From a virus: a DNA stretch of 64,000 bases. A model generated the notes under the pieces. That model made no database searches. It was not told the origin of the DNA and worked only from the letters and a program-made list of their open reading frames with translations. This document shows, piece after piece, positions 7,400-44,060 of the stretch. Positions within the stretch are counted from its first letter, which is position 1, and each line of letters starts with the position of its first letter. The translations under genes and the position numbers were made by a program. The stretch lies in IMG/VR virus record IMGVR_UViG_3300037468_000371, positions 1 through 64,000 of that record; one strand, given 5' to 3'.

Positions 7400-7450
7400 C
7401 CCTGATCACAGAAGTGTAGAGATCGAACACAGAAAGGAGACAGACACACC

Positions 7451-7729
7451 ATGCAGGTCAAGCTGATCAAGGGAAACGAGGAACGCTTGTACGAGTGCGC
7501 GAACATCGGAGTCACCCGCATCACCGAGGCGATGGCCGCGGCGCAGAAGCCGATCAACCGGCAGCCGGGGATCTACATCGAGATGGCTGAGGTGAACCGC
7601 GTGAAGGGCGCGACCAAGATGATCGTCCTGCCCGACGATGCTGACGTGGTGTTCGTGATGAACGACCTTGGCAAGACCACGGACACGTACCGCTGGCCGA
7701 TCACGGCGGTGGCGGGGGCGCGCCCGTGA
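7451..7729 (+). CDS. Small head-region protein of unknown function
   Basis: 92 residues, preceded by a strong GAAAGGAG site in the recurring GGAGACAGACA-type leader. Predicted mixed alpha/beta with no motif I recognise. It follows the capsid gene after a 51-bp gap and is coupled to the next gene by GTGA overlap. A structural or assembly role is likely from position only. Confidence 0.75.
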   Translation: MQVKLIKGNEERLYECANIGVTRITEAMAAAQKPINRQPGIYIEMAEVNRVKGATKMIVLPDDADVVFVMNDLGKTTDTYRWPITAVAGARP

Positions 7730-8145
7730 GATACCGCATCCTGAAGGGAGCCCACGGCCTCGTGACCCCCAAGGGTGTGAAGTTCACGGTGAAGCCCGGA
7801 GATGAGGTGGACCTGACCGCCGAGCAGTTCGCCAGGATCGGAGCGCACCGTTCCGTCGCGCTTTCGGCGGCGCCGCCGTCGCCCGCGGCGGCAGCCCGGC
7901 CGCCGAAGGAAACCGCGCCGCCGCCCGCCGCCGCGCTCGCGGCGCCCGCAGCGGACGGGCAGGGACGTTGGGCGGACATCCTGCACCTGAAGACGAACCG
8001 CGTCAAGGAGGTCATCGAGAGGCTCGAATCGATCGAAGAGATCGAGTCGCTCGCCTCGGCGGAAGAGGCCGCGCGGAACCGCGCCGGGGTCAAGATGGCC
8101 GCCCGCGAGCGCATCGAGGAGCTGAAGCAGAAGCTGGAGGGTTGA
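7726..8145 (+). CDS. Head-region protein with Ala/Pro linker and coiled coil
   Basis: 139 residues. Residues ~1-45 look like a small beta domain (MRYRILKGAHGLVTPKG...). Residues ~46-78 form an Ala/Pro linker, and residues ~90-139 are a charged helix likely to be a coiled coil (EVIERLESIEEIESL). GTG start overlaps the previous stop. The layout recalls small proteins between capsid and connector genes in siphophages. Function not recognised. Confidence 0.75.
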   Translation: MRYRILKGAHGLVTPKGVKFTVKPGDEVDLTAEQFARIGAHRSVALSAAPPSPAAAARPPKETAPPPAAALAAPAADGQGRWADILHLKTNRVKEVIERLESIEEIESLASAEEAARNRAGVKMAARERIEELKQKLEG

Positions 8146-8152
8146 GAGCGCC

Positions 8153-8662
8153 ATGGCCCTGAACGCTACAGCAGGCGACGCGGCAGCGAACAGCTACGTC
8201 ACGACCGACGAAGCGGACGCCTACTACGAGAACCGCCTGTTCTCGTCGGCGTGGGGGGCGGCGCCGAACGACCAGGAGCCGGCGCTGATCATGGCGACCC
8301 GGCTCCTGGACACCCGAGTGGCGTTCACGGGCGCGCCGGCCACGACGACTCAGGCGTTGTCGTGGCCGCGCTCCGGGATGTCCACCCGGAACGGCGTAGC
8401 GATCCCGATCGACGAGATCCCGGCGGACCTGAAGTACGCCGTGTTCGAGATGGCGCTGGCGCTCCTCGGCTCGACCGACGACACTTCGGCCGAGAACCAG
8501 GCGACGGCGCAGGGCCTGTCGCGGCTGCGGGCGTCGAACGTCGAGCTCTGGTTCACCGAGGGGTTCGAGCAGCGGCCGTTGCCGCTGCAAGTCATGCAGA
8601 TGCTGCCGGCCTCCTGGCTGGCTTCCACTACCGCTTCGATCCTTCCGCTGCGCCTGCTCTGA
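8153..8662 (+). CDS. Head-tail adaptor (DnaT-like family)
   Basis: 169 residues with the signature order of the phage DnaT-like/adaptor family: NSYVTTDEADAYYENRL at the N-terminus, ALIMATRLLDT, QALSWPRSGM, then IPADLKYAVFEMALALL. These proteins form the first connector ring below the portal; the DnaT name is historical and does not imply replication. The position between capsid and head-closure genes fits. Confidence 0.8.
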   Translation: MALNATAGDAAANSYVTTDEADAYYENRLFSSAWGAAPNDQEPALIMATRLLDTRVAFTGAPATTTQALSWPRSGMSTRNGVAIPIDEIPADLKYAVFEMALALLGSTDDTSAENQATAQGLSRLRASNVELWFTEGFEQRPLPLQVMQMLPASWLASTTASILPLRLL

Positions 8663-8668
8663 GCCGCG

Positions 8669-9067
8669 ATGGGATACGACGCTCTGATCCGCTCGGGAAT
8701 CTCGGCGGCAGCGACCGTTACGGCCTCTTTGCAGGCCAACGTCCTGCACGAGGCCTGGACGGGGATCGACGCGTACGGCGAACCGACCTACGCGGCTGGC
8801 ATCCAGCGCAAGGCCATCGTGCTCCGGGACGCGATCATGAAGCGCGACCGGGGCGGCGAGTGGGTGCAGACGCAGGCGGAGATCCTGTTCTTGAAGCCGT
8901 TCGTCAGCAATGGCGCCCCGGGCCGAAACGGCCCGATAGATATTCGGGATCGCATCACGCTGCCGGACGGCTTCACCTGCCCTATCGTCGAGACCGAGGG
9001 GTTGTTCGACCCTTCGACCTCGGCACCCTACTTCGCGGAAGTCTGGCTCGGGTACAGGCACCGCTGA
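8669..9067 (+). CDS. Head-closure (stopper) protein
   Basis: 132 residues, predicted beta-rich, with the size and position of siphophage head-closure proteins (second connector ring, below the adaptor). The C-terminal half contains KPFVSNGAPGRNGPIDIRD and a short Gly/Pro-rich tail. Its stop overlaps the ATG of the aminotransferase, so the sugar-enzyme block is translationally coupled to neck genes. Confidence 0.6.
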   Translation: MGYDALIRSGISAAATVTASLQANVLHEAWTGIDAYGEPTYAAGIQRKAIVLRDAIMKRDRGGEWVQTQAEILFLKPFVSNGAPGRNGPIDIRDRITLPDGFTCPIVETEGLFDPSTSAPYFAEVWLGYRHR

Positions 9068-10179
9068 TGAAGACGGCAAACGAAAAGATTCGCGTGTCCT
9101 CGGCGCAGTTCTACGGGCGCGAGCGCGAGTACGTCCTCGACTGCCTGGACACCCTGGAGCTTTCGGGCGGCGGGATGTCCAAGTACGGACAGCGGCTGGA
9201 GGCGGCGTGGGCGGAGTTCTGTGGCGTCTCCTACGCGGTGTCGTGCTCTTCGGGCACCGCGGCCCTGCACCTCGCGCTTGCGGCGCTCGGCCTTCGCCCG
9301 GGTCAAGGCGTCCTCGTTCCTGCGATCACGTACGTCGCCACGGCCAATGCCGTCTCTTACCTCGGTGGCGTGCCGATCGTCTGCGAAGTCCGCCCCGACA
9401 CGTGGACGCTCGATCCGGCCGATGCGGAGCGGCTGATCCTAGAGGCCAAGCGGGGAGGCCGGGACGTTGCGGGCATGATCCCGGTCCATCTGTACGGTGT
9501 GGTCGCGGACATGACCGCGCTCACAGCGCTCGCGCGCAAGCACGACCTGTGGGTCCTGGAGGACGCAGCCGAGGCGCACGGCGCGATCTACGCGGGCCGG
9601 CGCGCCGGGGCTCTAGGGGACATCGCCGCGTTCAGCTTCTATGGCAACAAGACCCTGACAGCCGGGGAGGGAGGGATTGTCACGACGAACGATCCCAAGC
9701 TCGCCGAGTCTGTCCGAAGCCTTCGCGGTCATGCGATGTCTACGTCCAGGCAGTATTGGCACGACACGGTCGGATACGGCTACCGGATGTCGAACGTCTC
9801 CGCAGCTATCGCGCTGGCGCAGGTCGAAACCTTCTCCGAACATCTCCACCGTCGCATGGGCGTGATGGGCGCGTACCTACACGCGCTCCCTTCCACCTTC
9901 GTGCTCCAGTCCGCGCCGGACGGCACGTCCCCGTGGATGTGTGCAGGGTTGCTTCCACAGGGAGTGTCGCCGACCCGTGTCGCCGAGCAGATGTCGCTGG
10001 GCGGAATCGAGACGCGCCCGGTATTCTTCCCGCTATCCGATATGCCGATGTACCGCTCCACGGCTCCTCATATCGCGGCTGTGATCGCGGCGCGGGGCCT
10101 GTGCCTTCCAACCCATGCGGGCTTGACCCGTGACGACGTTATGCGGGTCGTCGACTCACTGAAGCGGAGCCTGATGTGA
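9067..10179 (+). CDS. DegT/DnrJ/EryC1/StrS-family sugar aminotransferase
   Basis: 370 residues of full family length. This PLP enzyme family transfers an amino group to a keto-sugar nucleotide. Visible hallmarks are the phosphate-binding CSSGTAALHLAL (residues 60-71), EDAAEAHGA with the ring-stacking Asp (near 166-174) and the Schiff-base lysine K195 in SFYGNKTLTAGEGG. The substrate cannot be told. ATG 9067 overlaps the head-closure stop. It opens a run of coupled sugar-handling genes placed between connector and tail genes, so its product may decorate virion proteins or feed another phage modification. Confidence 0.92.
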   Translation: MKTANEKIRVSSAQFYGREREYVLDCLDTLELSGGGMSKYGQRLEAAWAEFCGVSYAVSCSSGTAALHLALAALGLRPGQGVLVPAITYVATANAVSYLGGVPIVCEVRPDTWTLDPADAERLILEAKRGGRDVAGMIPVHLYGVVADMTALTALARKHDLWVLEDAAEAHGAIYAGRRAGALGDIAAFSFYGNKTLTAGEGGIVTTNDPKLAESVRSLRGHAMSTSRQYWHDTVGYGYRMSNVSAAIALAQVETFSEHLHRRMGVMGAYLHALPSTFVLQSAPDGTSPWMCAGLLPQGVSPTRVAEQMSLGGIETRPVFFPLSDMPMYRSTAPHIAAVIAARGLCLPTHAGLTRDDVMRVVDSLKRSLM

Positions 10180-10742
10180 ACATTCCCGAGACTATCGCGT
10201 CATTGCCCGCCGGATCCCTGTGGCAGCATCATGCAGAGTTCATCGCGTTCTGCGAGTGGATCGCCCGCAACGAGATCAAGAGCATCCTCGAGATCGGCAC
10301 GGGCATCGGCGGCTCTGCGTACGTGTTCGGGAAGGCGACCGGCGATGCGCGGATCGTGTCCGTGGACTTCGCCCGGCGCTATGACCCGGACGGTCCGACC
10401 GCCCCAACCCGCAACCCCAACTTCACGCAGATCCTCGGCAACAGCCGCACGGACGAGGCCCAGGCCGCGATCGCGGCGCATGGTCCCTTCGACCTCGTGT
10501 ACTTCGACACGGCGCACCCGTACGAGGAGTGCGTCGACAACTACACCCGCTACGGCCCGATGGCGGCGCGCTACATCGCGCAGCACGACATCAATATGGA
10601 CGAAGAGAATTGGCCGGACGCGGGCATTCCTCGGTTCTGGCGCGAGTTGACGACGAAGCATCGCGTGGTCGCTGAGTTCGTCAACCCGTCGCCCGATCCG
10701 CGCTTCCCGCGCTGGGGCGGGCTTGGCGTGGTGAGCGCATGA
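10176..10742 (+). CDS. Class I SAM-dependent methyltransferase
   Basis: 188 residues with a Rossmann methyltransferase core: motif I ILEIGTGIGGSAY (about 36-48), an acidic strand end at VSVDFA, and FDLVYFDTAHPYEE (motif IV region). It resembles the CmcI/cephalosporin-hydroxylase-like group often found in sugar biosynthesis clusters. GTG start overlaps the aminotransferase stop. O- or N-methylation of a sugar is plausible from context; substrate unknown. Confidence 0.8.
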   Translation: MNIPETIASLPAGSLWQHHAEFIAFCEWIARNEIKSILEIGTGIGGSAYVFGKATGDARIVSVDFARRYDPDGPTAPTRNPNFTQILGNSRTDEAQAAIAAHGPFDLVYFDTAHPYEECVDNYTRYGPMAARYIAQHDINMDEENWPDAGIPRFWRELTTKHRVVAEFVNPSPDPRFPRWGGLGVVSA

Positions 10743-10837
10743 ACATCTCTCCGCGTCGCGTCTACTCGCAGTGCTCGGCGCACGCTGAGCCGACAGCCGA
10801 GCGCGCACGACTGTTCGAGGTGTATCCGTGCGCGTGA
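10739..10837 (+). CDS. Possible 32-residue coupling ORF
   Basis: ATG 10739 overlaps the methyltransferase stop (ATGA), and the frame runs to 10837, 10 bp into the following glycosyltransferase gene, exactly filling the only gap in this coupled block. The peptide is basic with no recognisable motif. It may be a small protein, a device to keep ribosomes moving into the next GTG start, or chance. Confidence 0.35.
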   Translation: MNISPRRVYSQCSAHAEPTAERARLFEVYPCA

Positions 10838-11583
10838 ACATCCGGGTCACAGAGCCCGATATGGGCTGGATCGTCGGTCGCTACGCGCGCGAGCTGGTCA
10901 AGTACCTGCCGCAGTTCGGAATCGACGCGGCGATCAACGACCCGCGCCGCACGGACTTGGAGTACCTCGCCAACGTCTACTTCCCGCCGTCTCGCCGTCC
11001 AGCGGTGGGGCTGTTCGCGCACGATCGCTTCCATCTCGCCCCCGAGTTCGACGGGCACATCGCCCTGAACCCGCACGTCGCCGACACGCTGCGCTCGTCC
11101 GGGGCGGCGAACCCGGTGGTCATCGAGCAGGCCGTGGACGAGTGCTACGTCACGAAGACAAAGGCGTCGACGGTGTTCGGCGTAGCGGGTAGCGTCAAGC
11201 GCGACAATCGTAAGGGGCAGGATCTCGTCGAGCGCATGGTCGAGGAAGGCTACAACATCATCGCGTGGGGCTCCGGCTGGCCGTGCCCGATCTTCAGCGA
11301 CCGGATCGAGCTGCTCCATGAGTTCTACAGCCAGCTCGACTACTACGTCGTCACGTCGCGGCTGGAGGGCGGCTGCACGCCGATCATCGAGTGCTTCGCC
11401 TGCGGCGTGCCGGTCATCAGCCCAAAGACCGGGTTCGCCATTCGCCGCCCCGTGATGGCCTACGAAGCCGGCGACTGGGACAGCCTGCACTCCGTTTTGC
11501 GCTTCGTCACCGAGCATAAGACCTACGAGAGCTTCGCGAGCGACCACGCGGCCTACTTTCGCGCCGTGCTGGAGGGGCTGTGA
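10828..11583 (+). CDS. Glycosyltransferase, GT4-like (short GT-B)
   Basis: 251 residues, shorter than typical GT4 enzymes (about 350-400), so part of the N-terminal domain is reduced. The C-terminal half keeps the family pattern: FGVAGSVKRDNRKGQDL, then DYYVVTSRLEGGCTPIIECFACGVPVIS, the E-x7-E-like donor-binding segment. It probably moves a sugar from a nucleotide donor. GTG 10828 follows the mini-ORF, and the stop is coupled to the next transferase gene by GTGA. Confidence 0.78.
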   Translation: MRVNIRVTEPDMGWIVGRYARELVKYLPQFGIDAAINDPRRTDLEYLANVYFPPSRRPAVGLFAHDRFHLAPEFDGHIALNPHVADTLRSSGAANPVVIEQAVDECYVTKTKASTVFGVAGSVKRDNRKGQDLVERMVEEGYNIIAWGSGWPCPIFSDRIELLHEFYSQLDYYVVTSRLEGGCTPIIECFACGVPVISPKTGFAIRRPVMAYEAGDWDSLHSVLRFVTEHKTYESFASDHAAYFRAVLEGL

Positions 11584-12089
11584 ACGTCACTGCCGTCCTG
11601 ATCACGCGCGAGCGGGCATATCCGCAGGACATCAGGGTCGACTTCCCGTTCGACGAGGTACTGGTCGAGACGAGCTGTCCGAACGTCCGCCGGCGCTACG
11701 AGCTGGCGCTTCGGGCAAAGAGCGACGTGATCTACACGCAGGACGATGACGCCGAGATCGACATCCCAGCGCTGTGGGCGCACTACGACGGGAGACTCAC
11801 GAACGCGATCACGCCCTACCATCGCGACGTCTACGCGCCGACCGGCATGACGCTCGTCGGCTGGGGCTGCTTTTTCCCGAAGTTGCTGATCGACTTCTCT
11901 CGGTGGGAGGCACGGTACGGCGAGGTCGACGAGGTCGAAGCCGACCGGATCTTCACCTACCTCGCGCAGCCGCACAACACCGTCGTCATGCCAATCGCAG
12001 AGCACAAGCGTCGCGAGCAGCTCTGCCAGCGGCCCGATCACTACCCGGCGCGCGATCGCATTCTGGCGAAGCTGAGGGCGCTTCGATGA
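11580..12089 (+). CDS. Small GT-A-type glycosyltransferase
   Basis: 169 residues with a GT-A-like pattern: a beta strand leading to a metal-binding acidic cluster YTQDDDAEID (about residues 58-67), then WGCFFPK. This resembles compact GT2/GT64-like enzymes. A nucleotide-sugar donor and metal dependence are expected from the DxD motif. Coupled on both sides within the sugar block. Confidence 0.65.
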   Translation: MNVTAVLITRERAYPQDIRVDFPFDEVLVETSCPNVRRRYELALRAKSDVIYTQDDDAEIDIPALWAHYDGRLTNAITPYHRDVYAPTGMTLVGWGCFFPKLLIDFSRWEARYGEVDEVEADRIFTYLAQPHNTVVMPIAEHKRREQLCQRPDHYPARDRILAKLRALR

Positions 12090-12943
12090 AGGTAGCGGTC
12101 GCCATCGAGACGAAGGATCGCCGGATCCCGAACTGGATGTCTACTGGAGGCGAGAACTACCTCGGCCAGACGCTGAACAACCTCGGGCGTAGCGGCTTCT
12201 GGTCGTCTCCGTATCTGCACTCGCTTCAGATTGTAGGCGGTGGCGAGCTTTCCGGATTCTGGGACGAACAGGTCCGCCCGTTTGTCCCGGCGGGCGCGCC
12301 GTTCGCGCTCCACGAGTGCCCGCCCGGGGGGCGCACCCGTCAGCAGAACGGGGCGATGGCGATCCGTGTCGCCGCCGAGACGGATGCCGACATCGTTCTC
12401 AAGCTGGAAGACGACCTCGACTTCTGTCACGACTTCCTAGGCAGCGCCGTGCGCTGGCTGTCAGACGTGCTCAGTGAGCGCGGGGTCTGCTTCTACGCGC
12501 TGGCCGCTCCGTTCCAGGCTTTCAGCGAGGCCCGCTACGCCCGCGAGGATGAGTACGTCGGAGGTCCTGGCAAGTCCTTTCCGTTCATTCGGGGCCTGAT
12601 GCAGAAAGGCGTGAACTTCGCCCGCCATCCGGCCGAAGCATTTTGGGCTGCGCAGGCGATCGCGTTCCGCCGGCACCGAGCGCTGGAGCTGGTCAAGTGG
12701 CTGGGCGACGACCCGTGCTACCGTAGCAGGCACCCCGAGTCGCTCCGCAAGACGGGGCACGACCTGCTACTCGGATTGTGGGCAAAGTCCGCCGGAGAAG
12801 TGATCGGCGCGGCCGTTCCGTCGTTTGTGCAGCACATCGGGAGACAGTCAAGCATCTCGTCGCGCGGCCGGTTCTTTCAGTTCCCGTGGCCGGGGCGCGA
12901 GTGGTCCTATGCAGGCAGGCAGACAGAGGAGGCCACCGCATGA
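12086..12943 (+). CDS. GT-A-type glycosyltransferase
   Basis: 285 residues. The acidic motif IVLKLEDDLDFCHDF (about residues 107-121) fits a GT-A metal site and follows a helix rich in small residues (GGRTRQQNGAMAIRVA), the usual layout before the DxD strand. The C-terminal region has TGHDLLLGLWA and a basic aromatic tail. Probably acts in series with the neighbouring transferases; donor and acceptor unknown. ATG overlaps the previous stop. Confidence 0.65.
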   Translation: MKVAVAIETKDRRIPNWMSTGGENYLGQTLNNLGRSGFWSSPYLHSLQIVGGGELSGFWDEQVRPFVPAGAPFALHECPPGGRTRQQNGAMAIRVAAETDADIVLKLEDDLDFCHDFLGSAVRWLSDVLSERGVCFYALAAPFQAFSEARYAREDEYVGGPGKSFPFIRGLMQKGVNFARHPAEAFWAAQAIAFRRHRALELVKWLGDDPCYRSRHPESLRKTGHDLLLGLWAKSAGEVIGAAVPSFVQHIGRQSSISSRGRFFQFPWPGREWSYAGRQTEEATA

Positions 12944-14163
12944 AAGTCCTATGGAACGGAGACGCCGTAGTCTCCAGCGGCTTCGCCCGCTGCACTCACG
13001 CCGTGTGCGACGAGCTCGCTCGGCGCGGTCACGAGGTCACGGTGCTGGGGATCAACTACTACGGTGACCCGCACCCGTACCCGTATCCGATCTACCCGTG
13101 TCGGCATCCGTTCGCGAGCGCGCGCGATCTGTTCGGCGTGGATCGGCTGCCCCGGTTGATCCATGAGCTGGGGCCGGACGTGGTTGTGCTGCTGAACGAC
13201 CCGTGGAACGTCCCGGCCTATCTGGACATGCTCGCGGCCGTCCGCGATCTGAACGAGGGATTCCCGCAGCCTCTGATGGCGGCGTGGCTGGCCGTGGACG
13301 GCAAGAACCAGAAGGACTCCGACCGGCTCGATGAGCTGGACGCCGTAGCGGTGTGGACCGAGTTCGGCGCCCGCGAGCTGAAGGCCGGCGGATACACGGG
13401 CGAGCCGGCCGTGATCCAACTCGGTGTGGACCTGGAGCGGTTCGGCCCCCGGTCGAAGGCCGAGGCGCGCCGGCTGCTGATGCCCGAGAGCCTTCCGGAC
13501 GATGCGTTCATCGTTGGCGCCGTGGGCCGAAACCAGCCGCGCAAGCGCCTGGACCTGACCATCGCCTACTTCGCCGAGTGGGTCCGCCGCGGCCAGCACG
13601 AGAACGCCTACCTCTACCTGCACGTCGGGCCTACGGGTGATACGGGCTGCGACATCCGGTCGCTCGTCAAGTACTATGGCATCAACGGCCGGGTGTTCAT
13701 CGGCGCGCCGCCGATCGGCTCAGGGATCCCCGAGCAGAACATGCCGGACGTGTACTCGGCCATGGACGTCTACATCTCTACGAGCCAGGGCGAGGGATGG
13801 GGCCTGACGGCGCTGGAGGCGATGGCGTGCGGTGTCCCCTGCATCCTTCCCCGCTGGTCGGCCTATGCCGACTGGTCCGGGCGCGGCGAGGCTGTTCTCG
13901 TGCCGTGTCATGAAACGGCGCTGACGGCGCCGATGAACGGCCTGATGCACACGGTTGGCGGCGTGCCCGACCGGCGGACCTTCATCGCGGAGCTGGAGAC
14001 GATGTACAGCTCCGAGGTCACGCGGCGGACCTACTCGCGGCGCGGTCTGCGGCTCGCGGCCGAGTATCCGTGGAGCCGCTCGGCAGCCGAGATGGCAGAC
14101 TTCCTCGAAAAGCAGGTAGAGTCCAAGCGGCAGCAGAAGCCGGCGGAGGAGGTCATCGTCTGA
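12940..14163 (+). CDS. Glycosyltransferase family 4 (GT-B)
   Basis: 407 residues, full length for GT4. The N-terminal acceptor domain starts MKVLWNGDAVVSSGFARCTH, with the glycine loop typical of the family; the donor domain has FIVGAVGRNQPRKRLDLTI and the E-x7-E motif in EGWGLTALEAMACGVP. A strong AGAGGAGG site precedes ATG 12940. It closes the sugar block, and its stop overlaps the tail-completion gene, so the whole block lies inside the structural operon. Confidence 0.9.
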   Translation: MKVLWNGDAVVSSGFARCTHAVCDELARRGHEVTVLGINYYGDPHPYPYPIYPCRHPFASARDLFGVDRLPRLIHELGPDVVVLLNDPWNVPAYLDMLAAVRDLNEGFPQPLMAAWLAVDGKNQKDSDRLDELDAVAVWTEFGARELKAGGYTGEPAVIQLGVDLERFGPRSKAEARRLLMPESLPDDAFIVGAVGRNQPRKRLDLTIAYFAEWVRRGQHENAYLYLHVGPTGDTGCDIRSLVKYYGINGRVFIGAPPIGSGIPEQNMPDVYSAMDVYISTSQGEGWGLTALEAMACGVPCILPRWSAYADWSGRGEAVLVPCHETALTAPMNGLMHTVGGVPDRRTFIAELETMYSSEVTRRTYSRRGLRLAAEYPWSRSAAEMADFLEKQVESKRQQKPAEEVIV

Positions 14164-14711
14164 TGGCAGGGTATACGCCCACGGCCCCGATCCTCATCGA
14201 GTTCAATCTCGGCGGTTCCCGCGAGATGAAGGCGGCGCTCGCGGCCCTGGATGGCGAGATTCGCCAGCGGGCCGCGGCGGCGTTGCGCCTAGAGGCCGAT
14301 CAGATCATTCGGAATGCGAAGGATAAGTACGTCCCGGTCGATCTCGGGAACCTGAAGAACTCGGGCCGCGTGGAGGCCCCGGCGTCGAAGGGCAAGGAGA
14401 TCTCGGTTGCGATGCACTTCGGCCTCGGGATTCCGCGGCCGTATGCCGAGGCGATCCACGAGTACCCGACCGCTCACCAGCCGCCGTCGTGGGTCGGCAA
14501 GGACGTGCATTTCAAGCCCGCCGGAACCGGGGCGAAGTACCTGGAGCGCCCGATGAAGGAGCAGTTCAAGGGCATGTCCATACGGCTGAAGAAGGCGATC
14601 TTCTCTACGGTGCGGTTGCCCGGGGTCCACCTGCGCCACTCGGGCGGCGGCGCGATCGGCCAAGCCCCGCCGCAGCCCGGCGGCGCCGCCGGAGAAGGCT
14701 CCATGCCATGA
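14163..14711 (+). CDS. Tail-completion protein (HK97 gp10-like)
   Basis: 182 residues with the HK97 gp10-like pattern: a helical N-terminus, then KYVPVDLGNLKNSGRV, PRPYAEAIHEYPTAHQ and GAKYLERPM. These proteins join tail to the neck. A Gly/Pro-rich tail ends the protein. ATG 14163 overlaps the glycosyltransferase stop. Confidence 0.8.
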   Translation: MAGYTPTAPILIEFNLGGSREMKAALAALDGEIRQRAAAALRLEADQIIRNAKDKYVPVDLGNLKNSGRVEAPASKGKEISVAMHFGLGIPRPYAEAIHEYPTAHQPPSWVGKDVHFKPAGTGAKYLERPMKEQFKGMSIRLKKAIFSTVRLPGVHLRHSGGGAIGQAPPQPGGAAGEGSMP

Positions 14712-15136
14712 TCCGCCGCTACGTCGAAGTGCTCGCAGCGCAGCGGCCGTTCCCGGTCGGTCTGGACGAAGAGCGCCGCGCGATATTCTCGTGCAACTAC
14801 GATGGACTCGTCACGGCGCCCGCGTGGGTCAGCTCGGGCGCGGTGAATACCAGCTTCGAAGAGGACATCGCTATGTTCATCACGAGCGCCGGGCTCGGTG
14901 TCCTCGGGAGCAGCCTGTACATCGGCCCGCTGGCCCTCCTGCAACCGGGCGCCGGGCCGTACACGACGTTGATCGATACAGGCGGCGCTCAGCCGGTCGA
15001 AACGCATGATGGCGCGCTGTACGAGCGCATCTCGTTTCAAGTTCTTGTCCGGGGCGCCTCTTACGCAGCAGCCCGCGGCCGGGCGCTGGCCATCTGGTCG
15101 GCGCTGGACGGCTTGCGGAACGTGACCGTGGCCTAG
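14708..15136 (+). CDS. Tail terminator protein
   Basis: 142 residues in the position and size of siphophage tail terminators, which cap the tube at the capsid end. It has a conserved-looking ERISFQVLVRGASYAAARGRAL stretch in which a beta strand is followed by the helix of the terminator fold, and an ending at GLRNVTV. Coupled to the tail-completion gene by ATGA. Confidence 0.72.
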   Translation: MIRRYVEVLAAQRPFPVGLDEERRAIFSCNYDGLVTAPAWVSSGAVNTSFEEDIAMFITSAGLGVLGSSLYIGPLALLQPGAGPYTTLIDTGGAQPVETHDGALYERISFQVLVRGASYAAARGRALAIWSALDGLRNVTVA

Positions 15137-15166
15137 CAATAGGGCCACACAGCAGAGGAGAAAACG

Positions 15167-15634
15167 ATGTCTCAGGCAGTGGCAGGCCACGGCGCGACGA
15201 TCGCGATCGAGCTGGATCCGACCGGCTCCGCCGGCACTTTCACCGTCGTCGCCGAGCTGAACGGCGACATCACCTGGCCGGAGCTGAACCGTCCCGAGAC
15301 GGAGACGACCCCGCACCAGGACACGATCGACGACTGGGTTCTCGGCCGCCTTGGCCGCGGGCCGTTGACCTTCTCGGTCAACTACATCTTCGACGACTCG
15401 ACCCACGACGCCTCGACGGGCCTGTACTCGAAGATCGTGTCGAACGAGCTGTTCGGCATCCGCATGCGCGGCCCGGCGGGCACGACCGACTCGGACGAGT
15501 GGATCGCCTCGGGTCACGTGCAGGCGATCACCCAGGTCGCTCCAGTCCGCGAGGGTGTCCGCTCCAGCGACGTCACCATCCGGCTCCGGAAGGCGATGAA
15601 GATCGACGGCGCGCTCATCGGCACTTCCATCTGA
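15167..15634 (+). CDS. Major tail (tube) protein
   Basis: 155 residues, beta-rich, with TVVAELNGDITWPELNRPE, TPHQDTIDDWVLGRLGRGP and EWIASGHVQAITQVAPV, which fit the tail-tube fold (NGDITWPE and strand-loop-strand order). It has its own AGAGGAG site and sits immediately before the chaperone pair and tape measure, the standard order. It would polymerise into the hollow tube. Confidence 0.85.
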   Translation: MSQAVAGHGATIAIELDPTGSAGTFTVVAELNGDITWPELNRPETETTPHQDTIDDWVLGRLGRGPLTFSVNYIFDDSTHDASTGLYSKIVSNELFGIRMRGPAGTTDSDEWIASGHVQAITQVAPVREGVRSSDVTIRLRKAMKIDGALIGTSI

Positions 15635-27685: not shown

Positions 27686-28261
27686 ATGCGCTCCGTGCTC
27701 AACGTCGGGGGCGGTCCGGGCCGCGTTCTGCCGCTGGTCTTTCGAGGCTGGCGGCAGGTGCTCCTCGACATCGACGCCGGGGTCCAGCCGGACATCGTGC
27801 TCGACGCGCGGCGGCTCTCGACGCTGCCGCCCGCAGGGTACGATGCGGTCTACTGCTCGCACACGCTGGAGCACTTCTACGGGCACGAGGTCGCGGGCGT
27901 GCTCGCGGGCTTCCGCCACGTCCTGAAGCCGCACGGCTTCGCCGAGGTCGCGGTGCCGGACCTCGGCGCGCTGGCGCGCGACCTCGCGGCGGCGGGCGGC
28001 GACCTCGACGCGCGCTGGTACGACTGCCCGACCGGACCGATCACGTTCCACGATGTCCTCTACGGCTGGAGCGAGCAGCTCCAGCGCGGGAACCTCTACT
28101 ACGCGCACCACTGCGGCTTCGACGCGCGGCGGCTCACCTCGGCGCTCCAGCGCGCCGGGTTCTCGAAGGTCTACGTCGAGGCGGCGAACCTTGAGCTGCG
28201 CGCCGTCGCGTTCCTGAAGCCCCCGTCGCGCGAGCGGCTGCGGCAGATTGGAGTCGCCTGA
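27686..28261 (+). CDS. SAM-dependent methyltransferase (COG4627-like)
   Basis: 191 residues with a type-11-like methyltransferase core: motif I LNVGGGPGRVLPL (about 5-17), acidic strand end LLDIDAG, YDAVYCSHTLEHFYG and FRHVLKPHGFAEVAVPD. The target cannot be inferred. It lies between fibre genes, next to a glycosyltransferase and a second methyltransferase-like protein, so it may modify a glycan or a virion protein. Its stop overlaps the next ATG. Confidence 0.78.
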   Translation: MRSVLNVGGGPGRVLPLVFRGWRQVLLDIDAGVQPDIVLDARRLSTLPPAGYDAVYCSHTLEHFYGHEVAGVLAGFRHVLKPHGFAEVAVPDLGALARDLAAAGGDLDARWYDCPTGPITFHDVLYGWSEQLQRGNLYYAHHCGFDARRLTSALQRAGFSKVYVEAANLELRAVAFLKPPSRERLRQIGVA

Positions 28262-37033: not shown

Positions 37034-38812
37034 ATGCAGCCGCAAGAGCCGCAGGTCGAGCTGCTCGACGATCGGACGCTGGCCGTCCGTGGCGCCTTCT
37101 TCATCCGTGAGGCAATCAAGGAGATCCCCGGGCGCCGTTGGGATGCGGCCCGCAGCCTATGGCTGCTGCCGCGGTCGCCGTTCGCGGCCCGCGCGCTGCT
37201 CAGCGTCGTGCCCTCGGCCATCGACGTGCCCGAGGTCGTGGAACTTGCCGGCCATGTGGCCCCGGGGCGCCGGACAGATCCGGAGCTGGACGAGCCGCTG
37301 GACAATCACTCGCCCGTAGGCCCCGCGTGGCTTCACCAGACGCGGGCGGCCCGCTGGCTCCTCGGTAACGATGCGGCCCTGCTGCAATACGGCATGCGCA
37401 CGGGCAAGACCCGCTCGACCCTCGATGCGGCCCGCGCCGCGGGCGCTCGGCTCATTCTGGTACTCGCGCCGCTTCGTGCCTGCATGGTCTGGCAGCGCGA
37501 GGCCGAAGCCCATCATCCCGGCTACTTCCGCGTCGTGCGGCTCGATCGCCGCTCCATCCAGCAACGGGCGGCGCAGCTGCGTGAAGAGGTGCGGCTCGCC
37601 CTTGCCCCCGGCGGGCAGCCCGCGGTGATCGCCCTGAACTACGAGGCCGCATGGCGCCCGCTGCTCAGTGAGCCGCTGCTGTCCATTCGGTGGGACGTGC
37701 TCGTCCTGGACGAGTGCCATCGCATCAAGTCGCCCGGCTCACACCAGTCGAAGTTCTGCGGTCGCCTCCAGCGCGCCGCGCGGCGCCGTTGGGCGCTGTC
37801 GGGGACACCGCTGGCCCACTCGCCGATGGACGCCTACGCGATCTTCCGCGCGCTGGACCCCGGCATCTTCGGCACGGCCTTCGGCGCCTTCCGCTCCCGC
37901 TACGCGATCCTCGGCGGCTACCTCGGCCGCGAGGTCGTCGGCTACCGGAACCTTGAGGAGTTCCGCGAGCGCTACTTCTCGATCACGCTCGCGGCCTCCC
38001 GTGATGTCCTAGACCTGCCCGAAGCGATCCACGAGACGGTCGTGATCGAGCTGCCTGCCGAGGCGCGGCGGCTACACGCGCAGGTGAAGGACCATGCGAT
38101 GGCGATGCTGGCGAGCGGCGACGGCGAGATCGTGGCGACGAACGTCCTGACCCAGATGCTGCGGATGTGCCAGATCGCTTCCGGCCATACGCGCGTCGAC
38201 GACCCCGTGGCCGTGACCGATGGGCAGATCGGGATCTTCGATCCCGAGGCCGCGCCGGCCGCGCCCGGCGGCCCGCGCACGGTGGAGGTCCATCGCGCGA
38301 AGGAGGAGGCCGTCGTCGAGATCCTGGGGGACCTCGACCCGCGCGAGCCCGTTGTGGTGTTCTGCCGCTTCCGGCACGACTTGGATCAGGTCGAGCGCGC
38401 CACGGCCGCGGCCGGCCGCCTGTATCGGGAACTGTCGGGCCGCCGCAACGACCTTGAGGACTGGCTCGGCTCGGCCGGCGGCGAGGTGCTCGGCGTGCAG
38501 TATCAGGCCGGGGGCGAGGGGATCGATCTAGCGCGGGCGAGCTACTGCATCCTGTACAACGATACGTTCGAGCTGGCCAAGTCCGACCAGGCGATTGCCC
38601 GCATCCACGGGCCGAAGTCACGCAACCGTGTGGTCTACTTTCACCTGGTCGCCCGCGGCACCATCGACGAGTATGTGCGGGACACGCTCGTGCGCCGCCG
38701 CGATGTGATCGCCCGCGTGCTGGACGAGCGCGCCCTCGGTAACGGCGGCGGCGGCGCGCCGATCATAGACGAAGACGGGCAGCAGGCCGAAGACGAGGAG
38801 GAACCGTTCTGA
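37034..38812 (+). CDS. SNF2-like superfamily 2 helicase
   Basis: 592 residues. After an N-terminal accessory domain (HARP-like in position, about residues 5-60), the ATPase core has Walker A GMRTGKT (120-126), LVLDECH (a DEAH-type Walker B) with RIKSP, WALSGTPLAHSP (motif III) and a C-terminal RecA domain with GEVLGVQYQAGGEGIDLARA and QAIARIHGPKSRNRVVYFHLV (motifs V-VI). A short AAPAAPGG linker separates the halves. It would remodel or unwind DNA structures in replication or repair. Its stop overlaps the next ATG. Confidence 0.88.
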   Translation: MQPQEPQVELLDDRTLAVRGAFFIREAIKEIPGRRWDAARSLWLLPRSPFAARALLSVVPSAIDVPEVVELAGHVAPGRRTDPELDEPLDNHSPVGPAWLHQTRAARWLLGNDAALLQYGMRTGKTRSTLDAARAAGARLILVLAPLRACMVWQREAEAHHPGYFRVVRLDRRSIQQRAAQLREEVRLALAPGGQPAVIALNYEAAWRPLLSEPLLSIRWDVLVLDECHRIKSPGSHQSKFCGRLQRAARRRWALSGTPLAHSPMDAYAIFRALDPGIFGTAFGAFRSRYAILGGYLGREVVGYRNLEEFRERYFSITLAASRDVLDLPEAIHETVVIELPAEARRLHAQVKDHAMAMLASGDGEIVATNVLTQMLRMCQIASGHTRVDDPVAVTDGQIGIFDPEAAPAAPGGPRTVEVHRAKEEAVVEILGDLDPREPVVVFCRFRHDLDQVERATAAAGRLYRELSGRRNDLEDWLGSAGGEVLGVQYQAGGEGIDLARASYCILYNDTFELAKSDQAIARIHGPKSRNRVVYFHLVARGTIDEYVRDTLVRRRDVIARVLDERALGNGGGGAPIIDEDGQQAEDEEEPF

Positions 38813-39960
38813 TGAAGACGATAGCGGGTCGTACCGTCAACGAAGTCTACCCGCTGGTGATGTGGCTGATCGGTGAGGATGGCATCCGCACCACAAGCCG
38901 TAACGGCCCGGTTCTGCAGCTGCCCGGGCCGCTCACGATCACCACGGCCGCGCCGGGCGCTCGCGTGTTGTTCGACACCGCCCGGGACGCGAACCCGTTC
39001 TTCCACGTGGCCGAGGCCATCTGGATGCTCGCGGGCCGGGACGACGTGGAGTGGCCGGCGCGGTTCGTGCCGCGGATGCTCACGTACTCGGACGATGGCC
39101 GCACGTTGCACGGTGCCTACGGTGCCCGCTGGAGGTGCTGGGACAACGCGGACTACCGCGCCGAGCCGATCGACCAGCTCGTCGAGATCATCCAGATGCT
39201 GCGCGATGATCCGTGGACCCGCCGCGCGGTGCTCGGGTTCTGGAATCCTGCCACCGACCTAGCGATGGCTCGCTCGGGCGGTCGCGACGTGCCGTGCAAC
39301 CTGACCGCGACATTCCAGGCTGCGGCGGACTGGAATGGCAACGGCAGCCCGCGCATCGACATGACGGTGTTCCAGCGTTCCGGCGATCTGATCTGGGGCG
39401 TCACGGGGGCGAACGCCGTCCACCTGTCGATGCTGCACGAGTTCGTCGCCCGCGGCGCCGGGGGATGGCAGGGACGGATGCATCAGGTGGTCGTGAACCC
39501 TCACGTGTACTGTGATATCTACGAGCGGATCATGGCGCGGTCCCCTCACCTGCGCGACAGCGCCCGAGCGGCGCTCGCCTCGGTGTCGGACCCGTACTTC
39601 GCCGATAGCCAGCGCCCGCTGACGCAGCTGCTGTGGCCGGACGAGGAGAGCGAGATCCCGAGTGGGCGGAGCGAGATGTGCGGACACGAGATGTTCACCC
39701 GGGGCTGTCACGAGTTCCTGAAGAACGACTGGCCCGACAACCATCCGTTCCTTCCGTGGTTCAAGAAGGTGGCGCTTCCGCTGCGCGAGTCGTACTTCGC
39801 GTACCGGCGCGCTCGGGCCAACGGCTTGACCCCGGCGGCGGCTGCGCCGATCGGCTTGGGGCTCCTGAGCGGGATGGATCCGATGGGCGACTGGTACCTT
39901 GCGGCGCGGAACTGGTTCGCGCGCCGCGCCGAGGCAACGAAGGAGACAGACAGTGAGTGA
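38812..39960 (+). CDS. Thymidylate-synthase-family dUMP methylase or hydroxymethylase
   Basis: 382 residues. Catalytic Cys C162 in GRDVPCNLTATFQ, then QRSGD (188-192), N201 in GVTGANAVHLSML and HVY (231-233), the key positions of thymidylate synthase. Asn at the pyrimidine-recognition position favours dUMP; hydroxymethylases acting on dCMP usually have Asp. Phage members of this branch make dTMP or 5-hydroxymethyl-dUMP; the hypermodification genes next door favour the latter. The chain is longer than E. coli ThyA (264 residues), with extra C-terminal sequence. It overlaps the helicase stop. Confidence 0.85.
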   Translation: MKTIAGRTVNEVYPLVMWLIGEDGIRTTSRNGPVLQLPGPLTITTAAPGARVLFDTARDANPFFHVAEAIWMLAGRDDVEWPARFVPRMLTYSDDGRTLHGAYGARWRCWDNADYRAEPIDQLVEIIQMLRDDPWTRRAVLGFWNPATDLAMARSGGRDVPCNLTATFQAAADWNGNGSPRIDMTVFQRSGDLIWGVTGANAVHLSMLHEFVARGAGGWQGRMHQVVVNPHVYCDIYERIMARSPHLRDSARAALASVSDPYFADSQRPLTQLLWPDEESEIPSGRSEMCGHEMFTRGCHEFLKNDWPDNHPFLPWFKKVALPLRESYFAYRRARANGLTPAAAAPIGLGLLSGMDPMGDWYLAARNWFARRAEATKETDSE

Positions 39961-40678
39961 AGACAGAGCAGGCGATGCGAGCATGGACTACCTGAGGCAC
40001 CTCGTCGCGATCGCCGACAAGGACGTCGAGGTCTTGCGCCAGAAGGAGCGCACCTACCGCGGCTCGTGGAAGAAGCGCGGCGGGGCCGGAGCATTCCACA
40101 TGCTGGCGCGGAAGTGGGACCGGCTCGAGAACATCGCGAACGGCTCCGGCGGCGACATCTTCCAGGCCATCGACGACGACTGGAAGCTGCACGGCCCGGG
40201 CTCGCCGGACGGGACGGCGCTGGCCGAAGTCCAGGATCTGCGCCGGTACCTGATGCTCGTGGAAGCTGAGATGATCCAGCGCAGCGGCGTGGACATCGAC
40301 ATCGACGCGGACGGCGGCGGCGTGTCCGTGGACACGACGGCGTTCGGATACCCGGACTGCTTCCGGAACATCAAGTTCGCCGCCGCCGGGCCGCTCGTGC
40401 AGCATCCGGACTTCCCGGTGGACGAGCGCGAGATGGCCGAGGACGCCGCCGAGCAGGAGCGCTACTACCGGGGCCGGGGCGCGCGGCGCGCCGCGGACCG
40501 GGAGCGCTCGCTCGCCGAGGAGGCGCTCGGCCTGCTGCCGAAGCTTCGCTCGGCGCTCGAAGACGCGCACCGGAAGAAGGAGTACGACCCCGCGGTGCAG
40601 CGGGGCATCATGCTGCTGCAGGAGATCATCCACTCCATCGAACGGGCGTACGTCCCGCCGAGCGCCCGCGGCATCTGA
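39953..40678 (+). CDS. Possible Nmad1-like protein in hypermodification cassette
   Basis: 241 residues. The first ~110 show a helical pattern (RTYRGSWKKRGGAGAFHMLARKWDRLENIA, then LAEVQDLRRYLMLVEAEMI) that recalls the nucleotide-modification-associated domain 1 (DUF1599) family. The next part has an acidic stretch DIDIDADGGG and the C-terminal third is helical and basic. GTG 39953 is chosen for AAGGAG 7 bp upstream and the 8-bp overlap with the preceding gene; ATG 39983 is an alternative. Function unknown; context suggests a role in modified-nucleotide metabolism. Confidence 0.55.
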   Translation: MSEDRAGDASMDYLRHLVAIADKDVEVLRQKERTYRGSWKKRGGAGAFHMLARKWDRLENIANGSGGDIFQAIDDDWKLHGPGSPDGTALAEVQDLRRYLMLVEAEMIQRSGVDIDIDADGGGVSVDTTAFGYPDCFRNIKFAAAGPLVQHPDFPVDEREMAEDAAEQERYYRGRGARRAADRERSLAEEALGLLPKLRSALEDAHRKKEYDPAVQRGIMLLQEIIHSIERAYVPPSARGI

Positions 40679-40702
40679 ACACGAGAGAGGAGACAGACAG
40701 AG

Positions 40703-42043
40703 ATGAAGGCTCCAACGATTCACCCGCCGGCCGCGCGCCTCGGCATTCTGTTCGCCGGGCTCGGCGCGGTAGCCACAACGACAATCGCCGGCATCATCAT
40801 GGGCCGGCTCCACCCCGGGATGGCGCTGATCGGCTCGCTGACCGAGATGCAGCGCATCCGGCTCGGCACCGGGCCGGACCGCCGGAACCCGCTGATCAAG
40901 GAGCTGCTGCCGCTCGCCCCGCTCGACTCGATGGTGTTCGGAGCGTGGGACCCGATCGGAGACAGCGCCTACGAAGCCGCGCTCCGGGCCGGAGTGCTGA
41001 GCGATCTGCATCTGGAATCGGTGCAGCCTGATCTGGACCAGATCGAACCGATGTCCGCGGTGTTCTCGAGCGACTGGGTGCGCCGCCTCGCCAGCGAGGC
41101 CAACAACGTCAAGCCCGCGAGCGCGGGCCGGGACACCGGGATGGCGATCGTCGATGCGCTCTGCTCCGACATCGAACGGTTCCGCGTCGCTCACGGCAAC
41201 TGCCCGGTCGTGGTCGTTTGGACTGGCTCGACCGAGTCACACAGCCTGTCGTACCCCGAGCGGGACGGGGATCTGGTGGCGCTGCGCCACGAGTTCGAGA
41301 CCAAGCAGGCCGGCGGCCCGCTGGCGCACACGCCGCCGTCGATGTTCTACGCCTACGCCGCGGCGCTCTGCGGCGCGCCGTTCATCAACGCCTCGCCGAA
41401 CCTGTGCATGGATACCGTGGCCATGCTCGAAGCCTCGCTGGTGCTGAACGCGCCCGTGGCCGGCAAGGACCTGAAGACGGGCCAGACCCTGATGAAGACC
41501 GTTCTGGCCCCCGCGCTGAAGGCCCGCTCGCTCGGGCTGGCCGGCTGGTTCTCGACAAACATCCTCGGGAACCGCGACGGTCAGGTGCTGGACGATCCAG
41601 CGGCGTTCCGCACTAAGGAGGAGTCGAAGCTGGGCGTGCTGCAGTCCATCCTGGATCCGGACATGTATCCCGAGCTCTATGAGGACGCGTACCACAAGGT
41701 ACGGATCGAGTACTACCCGCCGCGCGGGGACGCGAAGGAGGGATGGGACAACATCGACCTGGTCGGTTGGCTCGGCTACCCGATGCAGCTGAAGGTGAAC
41801 TTCCTGTGCCGCGACTCGATCCTGGCCGCGCCGCTCGTTCTGGACCTGATCCGACTGATCGATCTGGCGCGCCGGGCCAACCTTGCCGGAGTGCAGGAAT
41901 GGCTCAGCTTCTACTTCAAGTCCCCCGTGGTGTACCCGGGTGGAATCGCAGAGCACGACCTGTTCATCCAGCACCGCAAGCTGAAGAACTTCTTGCGCAT
42001 GCTCGCTGGCCACGCGCCGCTGACGCATGCCGAAGAGGGGTGA
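40703..42043 (+). CDS. myo-Inositol-phosphate synthase (MIPS)
   Basis: 446 residues, full length. MIPS cyclises glucose 6-phosphate to 1L-myo-inositol 1-phosphate with NAD+. Clear signatures: nucleotide-binding GLGAVATTTIAG (19-30); GSLTEMQRIRLG; RRNPLIKELLPLAPLD; the catalytic KDLKTGQTLMKT; GWFSTNILGNRDGQVLDDP; YPPRGDAKEGWDNIDLVGWL; and KVNFLCRDSILAAPLVLDLI followed by QEWLSFYFKSP, close to the bacterial MIPS family. Catalytic lysines appear present, so it should be active. GGAGACAGACAGAG precedes the start. Embedded in a DNA hypermodification cassette, it most likely serves base modification (inference). Confidence 0.93.
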   Translation: MKAPTIHPPAARLGILFAGLGAVATTTIAGIIMGRLHPGMALIGSLTEMQRIRLGTGPDRRNPLIKELLPLAPLDSMVFGAWDPIGDSAYEAALRAGVLSDLHLESVQPDLDQIEPMSAVFSSDWVRRLASEANNVKPASAGRDTGMAIVDALCSDIERFRVAHGNCPVVVVWTGSTESHSLSYPERDGDLVALRHEFETKQAGGPLAHTPPSMFYAYAAALCGAPFINASPNLCMDTVAMLEASLVLNAPVAGKDLKTGQTLMKTVLAPALKARSLGLAGWFSTNILGNRDGQVLDDPAAFRTKEESKLGVLQSILDPDMYPELYEDAYHKVRIEYYPPRGDAKEGWDNIDLVGWLGYPMQLKVNFLCRDSILAAPLVLDLIRLIDLARRANLAGVQEWLSFYFKSPVVYPGGIAEHDLFIQHRKLKNFLRMLAGHAPLTHAEEG

Positions 42044-42054
42044 GGGCGAACGCC

Positions 42055-43128
42055 ATGCCCCGAGGAGTGTACCCACGCCAACCGCGCGACCCGAACCGGC
42101 CGAAGAAGGAGCGGAAGCCGCGCCAACCGCGCGACCCGAACCGGCCGCGGAAGGAGCGGAAGCCACGCCAACCGCGCGACCCGAACCGGCCGCGGAAGGA
42201 GCGGAAGCCGCATGAGGTGAAGCGCGACGCAGACGGTCGCGTCAAGAAGTACGCACGGGGCGCGGGGTTAGTCCCGGCCATCAGGACGCCGGCCGTGGCG
42301 CGCCCGCCATTCATCCTGGAGATCCGCGGGGCCGGCGGCTCGGGCAAGACCACAGTAGCCCGCGCCGTGATGTCCCGTTACGCTTCGGGGCGGCCGATGC
42401 AGTTGCACGAGCCGTGGGAGCTGGAGACGCTGGAGAAGGGCCGTCGAGTCTGGTGGGGAAGCGGCGCGCTGCTCAAGCCGGGCGCCACGCTGACACACCG
42501 TGGCACAGTAGCGCGGGTGAACAACCGGGTGTACGGGCACCTGCTCGAACGGCACGACGAGCATGGGCGTATCGCCGGCCGGCCGCTTCTGGCCGTGGGC
42601 AAGTACGCGAAGGACTGCGGCGGCGTGGACACGGTAGCGAACATGGACGTGGCCTACGAGATTATCCGCCGCTACCACGAGCTGGGGTTCGACGTCCTGG
42701 CCGAGGGCAAGGTCCTTTCCCACTCGACGAACGAGCGGCCCCTGCGCTTCAAGGATCACCTGGTTGTGATCTTCTTGGAAGTCACCGAGGAGTTCTCGTT
42801 CGAGAACCAGGTGAAGCGCCGCACCGAGAGCGGCTCAGAGACGGATATGGCGAAGCTGGAATCGATCCGCTCGAACGCGCGGGCCGAAGTCCGCGCCGCC
42901 CGATCGTTCGCGCGCCGCCTCGGCGAAGAGGGCGTGGAGGTCTTCCCGACCGACTCGCACGAGGCCGCCGTGCAGTACGCGCTGGAACGGCTCGGGCTCG
43001 AGAATGCGCCGATCCACGAGGACTTCTGGGAGCTGTTCGAGATGCCCCCGGAAAGCGACGGCCGCTCGCGGCCGCGCGGCCCCCGCTACGGAGACAGGGA
43101 CCCGGATCCGCAGGTGACGCTGTGGTAA
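42055..43128 (+). CDS. P-loop kinase of 5-hydroxymethyl-dU DNA kinase type
   Basis: 357 residues. A basic N-terminal tail holds three near-perfect 15-residue repeats (theme PRQPRDPNRP.KERK). Then comes a P-loop kinase: RGAGGSGKTTVARA (Walker A), VGKYAKDCGGVDTV, ELGFDVLAEGKVLSHS, VVIFLEVTEE and the Arg-containing lid region QVKRRTESGSE. The pattern matches enzymes that phosphorylate hydroxymethyl groups of bases in DNA, starting thymine hypermodification. GAGGGG site before ATG 42055. Confidence 0.75.
   Translation: MPRGVYPRQPRDPNRPKKERKPRQPRDPNRPRKERKPRQPRDPNRPRKERKPHEVKRDADGRVKKYARGAGLVPAIRTPAVARPPFILEIRGAGGSGKTTVARAVMSRYASGRPMQLHEPWELETLEKGRRVWWGSGALLKPGATLTHRGTVARVNNRVYGHLLERHDEHGRIAGRPLLAVGKYAKDCGGVDTVANMDVAYEIIRRYHELGFDVLAEGKVLSHSTNERPLRFKDHLVVIFLEVTEEFSFENQVKRRTESGSETDMAKLESIRSNARAEVRAARSFARRLGEEGVEVFPTDSHEAAVQYALERLGLENAPIHEDFWELFEMPPESDGRSRPRGPRYGDRDPDPQVTLW
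42076..42210 (+). repeat. Three tandem 45-bp repeats in the kinase N-terminus
   Basis: Units start at 42076, 42121 and 42166 (period exactly 45 bp), each encoding a Lys/Arg/Pro-rich 15-mer. Copies one and two differ only near KK versus RK codons. The result is a flexible positively charged tail. Confidence 0.85.
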
Positions 43129-44060
43129 ACGCCCTGAACGCCGATGGAACGCCGCGGATGAACCCCGAGCACATCAACGGCTTCTTCTCGACGGCGCGCG
43201 AGCGCTACTCTATCCTGCTGCGGCGCCGCGCGGGCGCGCCGTGGCCGTGGACCGAGGACCCGGTCTTCCTCCGCTGGCGATTCTGCAACGTACACCGCGA
43301 GGACGACCGCACGACCCGCTGGTTCGCCCGCGAAGTTCGCGGCCCGCTGGCCGCGAACCCGCGCGCCGTGTACCGCGCAACGGTGGCTTTCCGCTGGTAC
43401 AACCGCATCGAGACCGGCTCGCTGCTCAGGCCGTGGCTGCTCGCGGACGAGTGGCCGTTGCGCAAGGTGCTGAACCGCCTGAAGCGGAACAGCCCGCCGT
43501 ACGTCACGGGTGCGTACATCGTCCAGGGCCTTCGTGGCTACAAGAAGGCCGAGGGCGTTGCGCGGGCAATCGACGAGTTCAGGCGCACGGGGCCGCGCAT
43601 CGACGACATCACGGCCGAGGGGACCCTCCAGGCCGCGCACTGGTTGATCGCATCGCGCGTCCGGGCGCAGGGGACCTTCACGGCCTACGAAGTGGTCACC
43701 GACCTGCGCCACACCTGCGCCCTGTGTGAAGCCCCGGACATCTTCGGCTGGTGCTATGTCGGCCCCGGCGCCCGGCGGGGCCTGAGCCGCCTGTTGTTCG
43801 GGCATCCCGATGGGCTCGGGAACCCGAGCAGCGATCGGTTCACCGTGTCCGCGTACGAGCTGGGGCTCTGCCAAGACCTGCTCGCTCTGGCGCGCATCGA
43901 ATCCTATTGGCCGGCGGAGTGGCCTGCGTGGGAGATGCGCGAAGTGGAGCACTGGCTGTGCGAATACGACAAGTACGAGCGCGGCGCTGCGATCCTGGCC
44001 GGCCGTCCCGGCTCGATGAAGCGCCGCTACCTAGAGAAAGAACGCAAGGAGCTGATCTGA
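43122..44060 (+). CDS. aGPT-pyrophosphorylase-like protein (thymine hypermodification)
   Basis: 312 residues from GTG 43122, which overlaps the kinase stop; ATG 43158 is an alternative. The N-terminal region matches alpha-glutamyl/putrescinyl-thymine pyrophosphorylase-type proteins: ERYSILLRRRAGAPWPWTEDP and RWRFCNVHREDDRTTRW (about residues 28-67), then GAYIVQGLRGYKKAEGVARAI. In known pathways these enzymes act on activated (phosphorylated) hydroxymethyl-uracil in DNA and attach an amine or other nucleophile. Position immediately after the kinase supports this. Confidence 0.8.
   Translation: MVNALNADGTPRMNPEHINGFFSTARERYSILLRRRAGAPWPWTEDPVFLRWRFCNVHREDDRTTRWFAREVRGPLAANPRAVYRATVAFRWYNRIETGSLLRPWLLADEWPLRKVLNRLKRNSPPYVTGAYIVQGLRGYKKAEGVARAIDEFRRTGPRIDDITAEGTLQAAHWLIASRVRAQGTFTAYEVVTDLRHTCALCEAPDIFGWCYVGPGARRGLSRLLFGHPDGLGNPSSDRFTVSAYELGLCQDLLALARIESYWPAEWPAWEMREVEHWLCEYDKYERGAAILAGRPGSMKRRYLEKERKELI

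Follow-up and report, generated by a model that had tools for sequence, protein, structure and literature searches.

To our knowledge, glycosylated particles of tailed phages are known from few isolates. Mycobacteriophages Che8, Corndog and Myrna are reported to glycosylate their capsid and tail tube proteins with glycosyltransferases of their own (Freeman et al. 2023, cited in PMC12363180 and PMC11256854). The locus described here likewise contains phage-encoded glycosyltransferases, and the virion-protein glycan reported there is proposed here. In F1 phage Maravista, which is related to those mycobacteriophages, the glycosyltransferase genes lie near the genome 3' end (PMC11256854), whereas those in our locus lie inside the neck module. 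A dedicated amino-sugar aminotransferase and a slot content that varies across the lineage also distinguish this locus from the mycobacteriophage systems.

Three isolates from other virus groups, S-CBS4, phiPsal1 and Mae-JY09, carry glycosyltransferase clusters in head/neck modules, between portal/capsid and neck/protease genes, and in S-CBS4 and phiPsal1 these clusters include methyltransferase genes, as does our block. The exact position differs from ours, however, and no aminotransferase is annotated in their clusters. Bacterial O-antigen clusters are similar in that constant genes flank a polymorphic locus encoding nucleotide-sugar enzymes, glycosyltransferases and modifying enzymes, but our block is viral, lies within structural genes and lacks a polymerase, a flippase and a lipid-carrier step. 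In the literature searched, which included few subscription papers, we found neither a sugar cassette among phage structural genes nor a lineage-wide polymorphic neck slot. We regard the cassette as genuine and non-random. Virion glycosylation itself is already known, and our best inference is that the neck-module slot represents a new form of it, with a putative target.

Position and coupling of the sugar-gene block

The window analyzed here is bases 1-64000 of the 72,722-base record IMGVR_UViG_3300037468_000371, a virus of bacteria. Up to about 52.7 kb its genes are encoded on the plus strand (terminase, portal, protease, capsid, neck, tail, replication), and those further on lie on the minus strand. 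The sugar-gene block (9067-14163) is a head-to-tail series of plus-strand ORFs bridging the head-closure gene and the tail-completion gene. The first-pass annotation had described six genes among neck genes, joined by 1-4-bp overlaps, and a mini-ORF in one 85-bp gap; both descriptions hold at the level of the ORFs. The 32-codon mini-ORF (10739-10837, plus strand) also closes the gap, and once it is included all block junctions are 1- or 4-bp overlaps. It looks like a translational coupler of the methyltransferase gene to the next gene, because its ATGA start lies inside the methyltransferase stop and its GTGA end lies inside the next start. This overlap is also why the next gene probably starts at the GTG at 10834 rather than at 10828.

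To the left of the block, an Ad1 adaptor gene (8153-8662, plus strand; phrog_477, 1.5e-31) is followed by a small neck gene (8669-9067, plus strand) for which Pfam and PHROG searches gave no match. The initial assignment of this gene to head closure thus stands by position only, between Ad1 and the block, while the tail-completion assignment of the right flank is borne out by a match to phrog_5 (Neck1, 14163-14711, plus strand; 3.2e-6), a gene sharing 1 bp with the end of the block. In resolved loci of relatives, the slot is bounded on the left by homologs of 8669-9067 and on the right by homologs of 14163-14711.

No promoter-like sites were found in 7400-15200, and the sole terminator-like site in that interval is a weak one at 15014, downstream of the block. 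The absence of internal signals is in line with co-transcription of the block and the neck genes. Position beside neck genes likely indicates co-expression, while saying nothing on the substrate. An assembly chimera was considered and set aside: the block genes share strand, overlaps and a GC content of 0.64-0.68, and contigs obtained independently contain the slot as well.

Predicted enzymes of the block

The first gene (9067-10179, plus strand, 1-bp overlap with 8669-9067) has a full-length PF01041 domain (6.9e-96), which confirms its initial naming as a DegT aminotransferase; its membership in the DegT/DnrJ/EryC1 sugar aminotransferases is certain from sequence comparison. The top PDB match is the Caulobacter perosamine synthetase 3bn1 (2e-93), with which it shares the DegT family over its full length and the PLP lysine motif GNK..GEGG, as seen in the alignment to 3bn1. 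The enzyme thus resembles GDP-perosamine synthase, a specificity predicted from its nearest solved relative; matches to equivalog models such as PseC are below cut-off. Unlike its Caulobacter counterpart it is a phage gene, and no GDP-mannose 4,6-dehydratase was noticed beside it. Its homologs in isolate phages are distant, with at most about 39% identity among the matches listed.

Support for the methyltransferase (10176-10742, plus strand, 4-bp overlap with the DegT gene) is modest, with a Methyltransf_24 match just under cut-off (1.8e-5) and a weak match to the NanM sugar O-methyltransferase (2.6e-4). Its homologs occupy the same slot in relatives, and the protein is probably a class I SAM methyltransferase with a sugar as its substrate. 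A second SAM methyltransferase gene, apart from that of the block, is found amid the tail genes (27686-28261; Methyltransf_23, 7e-9).

Four glycosyltransferases had been proposed at first, three of which are supported while the remaining one is a possible case. The last gene of the block (12940-14163, plus strand, 4-bp overlap with the preceding gene) matches Glyco_trans_1_4 (PF13692, 1.7e-13) and PF00534, both above cut-off, and phrog_2170 (3.6e-36). Residues E285 and E293 of its EX7E motif are invariant in ten relatives, and by these features it is a GT4 enzyme with a GT-B C-terminal domain; we refer to it as the core GT4 gene. The gene at 10834-11583 (plus strand) is predicted to encode a short GT-B glycosyltransferase with a GT4-type C-terminal half, on the basis of matches to Glycos_transf_1 (Pfam, 7.3e-7) and to the profile of D-inositol 3-phosphate glycosyltransferase 7qsg (3e-9). 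For 12086-12943 (plus strand, 4-bp overlap with the preceding gene), Pfam and a profile search against PDB sequences found nothing and a PHROG glucosyltransferase match was weak (0.0027). An EDD motif is nonetheless invariant in a nine-member alignment of this protein, and the AlphaFold2 model built from that alignment (pLDDT 72, pTM 0.79) matches the GT-A enzymes POMGnT1, GnT-I and LH3 in Foldseek with probability 1.00, so that a GT-A fold glycosyltransferase is supported by the model.

The small protein of 11580-12089 (plus strand, 4-bp overlap with the preceding gene) is a possible GT-A glycosyltransferase candidate, with a QDDD motif invariant in three sequences. It gave no useful family match in Pfam, PHROG or a further family search, no PDB or glycosyltransferase profile match and none to GT-A profile A4, and its single-sequence model was unusable (pLDDT 36). 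Two homologs belong to clusters of sugar genes on other viral contigs (L176, 198-5516; L177, 1396-5525) with PIG-L-like, DegT-like and epimerase-like neighbors, as judged by eye.

The slot in related viruses

A scan of IMG/VR with a GT4 alignment returned 413 relatives; in the best 24 of these 413 loci, which were inspected, the structural genes are largely common with the window. The scan was repeated from the major capsid protein, since the GT4-based sample had been chosen for GT4, and dereplication left 28 distinct loci with both slot borders, window included. The relatives are mostly metagenomic contigs, some of them incomplete. Scans of viral contigs with the single DegT, capsid or 12086-12943 protein found no relatives, whereas alignment-based scans did; an alignment of six GT4 sequences proved too diverse for this purpose. 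The only hint at a host comes from one lineage member (L096), whose contig is part of a Sulfuricaulis metagenome-assembled genome and may be a binned phage contig.

GT4 lies between the head-closure and tail-completion genes in 24 of the 28 loci, with slot lengths of 1.2-6.6 kb. In one further locus (L105), GT4 genes lie close by but the gene order is rearranged. In the other three (L103, L106 and L108) the slot is empty, at 11-215 bp, and GT4 is missing from the whole record, which for L108 spans 120.8 kb. The capsid tree groups these three as a single clade (91/92 support), so one loss of GT4 is the simplest history.

Pairwise distances of GT4 correlate with those of the capsid (r 0.64), TT1 (0.75), tail completion (0.51) and head closure (0.56) over 24 loci, at least as strongly as distances of the structural genes do with those of the capsid (r 0.35-0.51); Mantel p is at most 0.008. 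These correlations indicate that GT4 has been inherited mostly together with the structural module. The cargo beside it ranges from nothing to about 5 kb in the 24 loci. For example, one locus has GT4 alone (L111) and another has GT4 with six further ORFs (L109), and their capsids are 85% identical. Amino-sugar cassettes require three changes on the tree, no fewer than random labels do. DegT is accompanied by a hexapeptide acyltransferase in five loci (L021-L024, L107) and by an FdtA-like cupin in three (L125, L126, L128). The set DegT-GT1-GT3-GT4, most of the gene order of the window, is present in L128 and L126. Methyltransferases, GT-A enzymes, GT2, GT10 and CAP59-like transferases, a sulfotransferase and radical SAM enzymes were also found, and the cargo of the relatives is largely concerned with glycan chemistry. 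B12-binding radical SAM enzymes are a recurrent cargo, for example at 13848-15452 of L109 and in relatives.

Such variability, with slots from 11 bp to 6.6 kb, could also be that of a free-standing cargo hotspot kept by recombination and having a mixed virion function or none. We regard this as very unlikely, since the identified cargo is mostly glycan chemistry, the GT4 gene is almost constant and the loci devoid of it are a single clade.

A second alternative is that the cassette remodels the host surface polysaccharide late in infection, for superinfection exclusion or to avoid adsorption to debris. DegT/perosamine and GT4 enzymes are typical content of O-antigen loci, and the authors of a pelagimyophage survey prefer host O-chain modification as the role of phage glycosyltransferases (PMC7029224). 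The block, however, encodes no membrane protein, flippase, lipid-carrier transferase or polymerase by Pfam and hydropathy, and none of its six proteins has a membrane-spanning segment (top 19-residue Kyte-Doolittle mean 1.45). With respect to gtr-type serotype conversion, we found no strongly hydrophobic segment and no match to a flippase or membrane-bound transferase family in the block. Cassette expression appears tied to the late neck genes, and both the slot and GT4 divergence go with virion genes, so we consider a host-surface role unlikely.

Proposed pathway and acceptor

We consider it probable that the block is a late-expressed virion-glycosylation cassette. Its expression would coincide with that of the late genes for head-tail joining, and DegT would convert a host-made NDP-4-keto-6-deoxyhexose (GDP-4-keto-6-deoxymannose, judging by its nearest relative) to GDP-perosamine or another 4-amino-4,6-dideoxy sugar. 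Cytoplasmic glycosyltransferases could then build a short glycan onto a structural protein, either ahead of particle assembly or in its course, and this glycan may be modified by the methyltransferase. GT4 would catalyze the constant step, probably the transfer that comes first or lies nearest the protein, and the type of glycan would be set by the remaining genes as exchangeable cargo. Gene content, coupling, slot conservation, cargo turnover and the co-divergence of GT4 with structural genes are observed; the substrate sugars, the order of transfer and the protein target are predicted.

The same genome offers a real rival sugar acceptor, which was absent from the first-pass annotation. A thymidine-hypermodification set (38812-44060) comprises a thymidylate-synthase-like enzyme (38812-39960), an uncharacterized ORF (39983-40678), a myo-inositol-1-phosphate synthase (40703-42043), a P-loop kinase (42217-43128) and a protein with the 5-hmdU-DNA-kinase helical domain (HMUDK_hel, 43158-44060; PF18723, 1.4e-33). 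The myo-inositol-1-phosphate synthase in this set suggests an unusual modification. The block glycosyltransferases might thus act on hypermodified thymidines of phage DNA, but this cluster is about 25 kb away from the block and the GT4 gene is inherited alongside capsid and neck genes. All 15 long relative records (43-101 kb, possibly incomplete) have GT4, whereas PF18723 occurs in only 2 of them and PF00303 in only 3, and no regular co-occurrence of the GT4 block with 5-hmdU hypermodification genes was found in these 15 records. In the first relative set, which comprised 16 records, neither PF18723 nor PF07994 was found, and searches of S-CBS4, TJE1, phiPsal1 and Mae-JY09 gave no PF18723 or PF00303 either. 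A TET/JBP search had no match anywhere and is hence uninformative. Overall, DNA appears to be an improbable acceptor.

A virion-protein target is the best reading, favored by the slot, the timing, the inheritance of GT4 and the mycobacteriophage precedent. The initial proposal of late co-expression and a phage-encoded amino-sugar glycan on the virion fits the anatomy of the block, the conserved slot, the co-divergence of GT4 and the relatives devoid of the tested DNA-modification genes, while the sequence shows no recognizable target protein, sequon or glycan, and the acceptor, the linkage and the sugar transfer itself are predicted. The tail tube proteins of the GT4-less clade (L103, 13643-14278; L106, 11915-12550; L108, 15067-15702) are 211 residues long, against 139-163 residues in most GT4-bearing relatives, and near the N-terminus they contain some 60 additional residues that GT4-bearing relatives lack. 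Since a single clade counts as one event, this difference no more than hints that the tail tube could be the glycosylated surface. Two adjoining ORFs beside a YfbR-like gene (50810-51874 and 51874-52728) have no Pfam or PHROG match, and the start of the latter is GT-A-like by eye.

More tentatively, and with somewhat less than even confidence, the slot may be a lineage-wide, O-antigen-like exchangeable glycotype locus in the head-tail joining module. GT4 would start glycosylation of a neck or tail protein, cargo swaps would change the sugar coat of the particle, and the GT4-less clade would have the extra tail-tube domain instead. If this is true, particle glycotyping would be a trait stably maintained in a diverse lineage of environmental phages. 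Its natural variants, with an empty slot, with GT4 alone or with GT4 and different sugar pathways, may then prove useful for testing the role of a sugar coat without animal antibodies, be it in adsorption, diffusion or particle stability.
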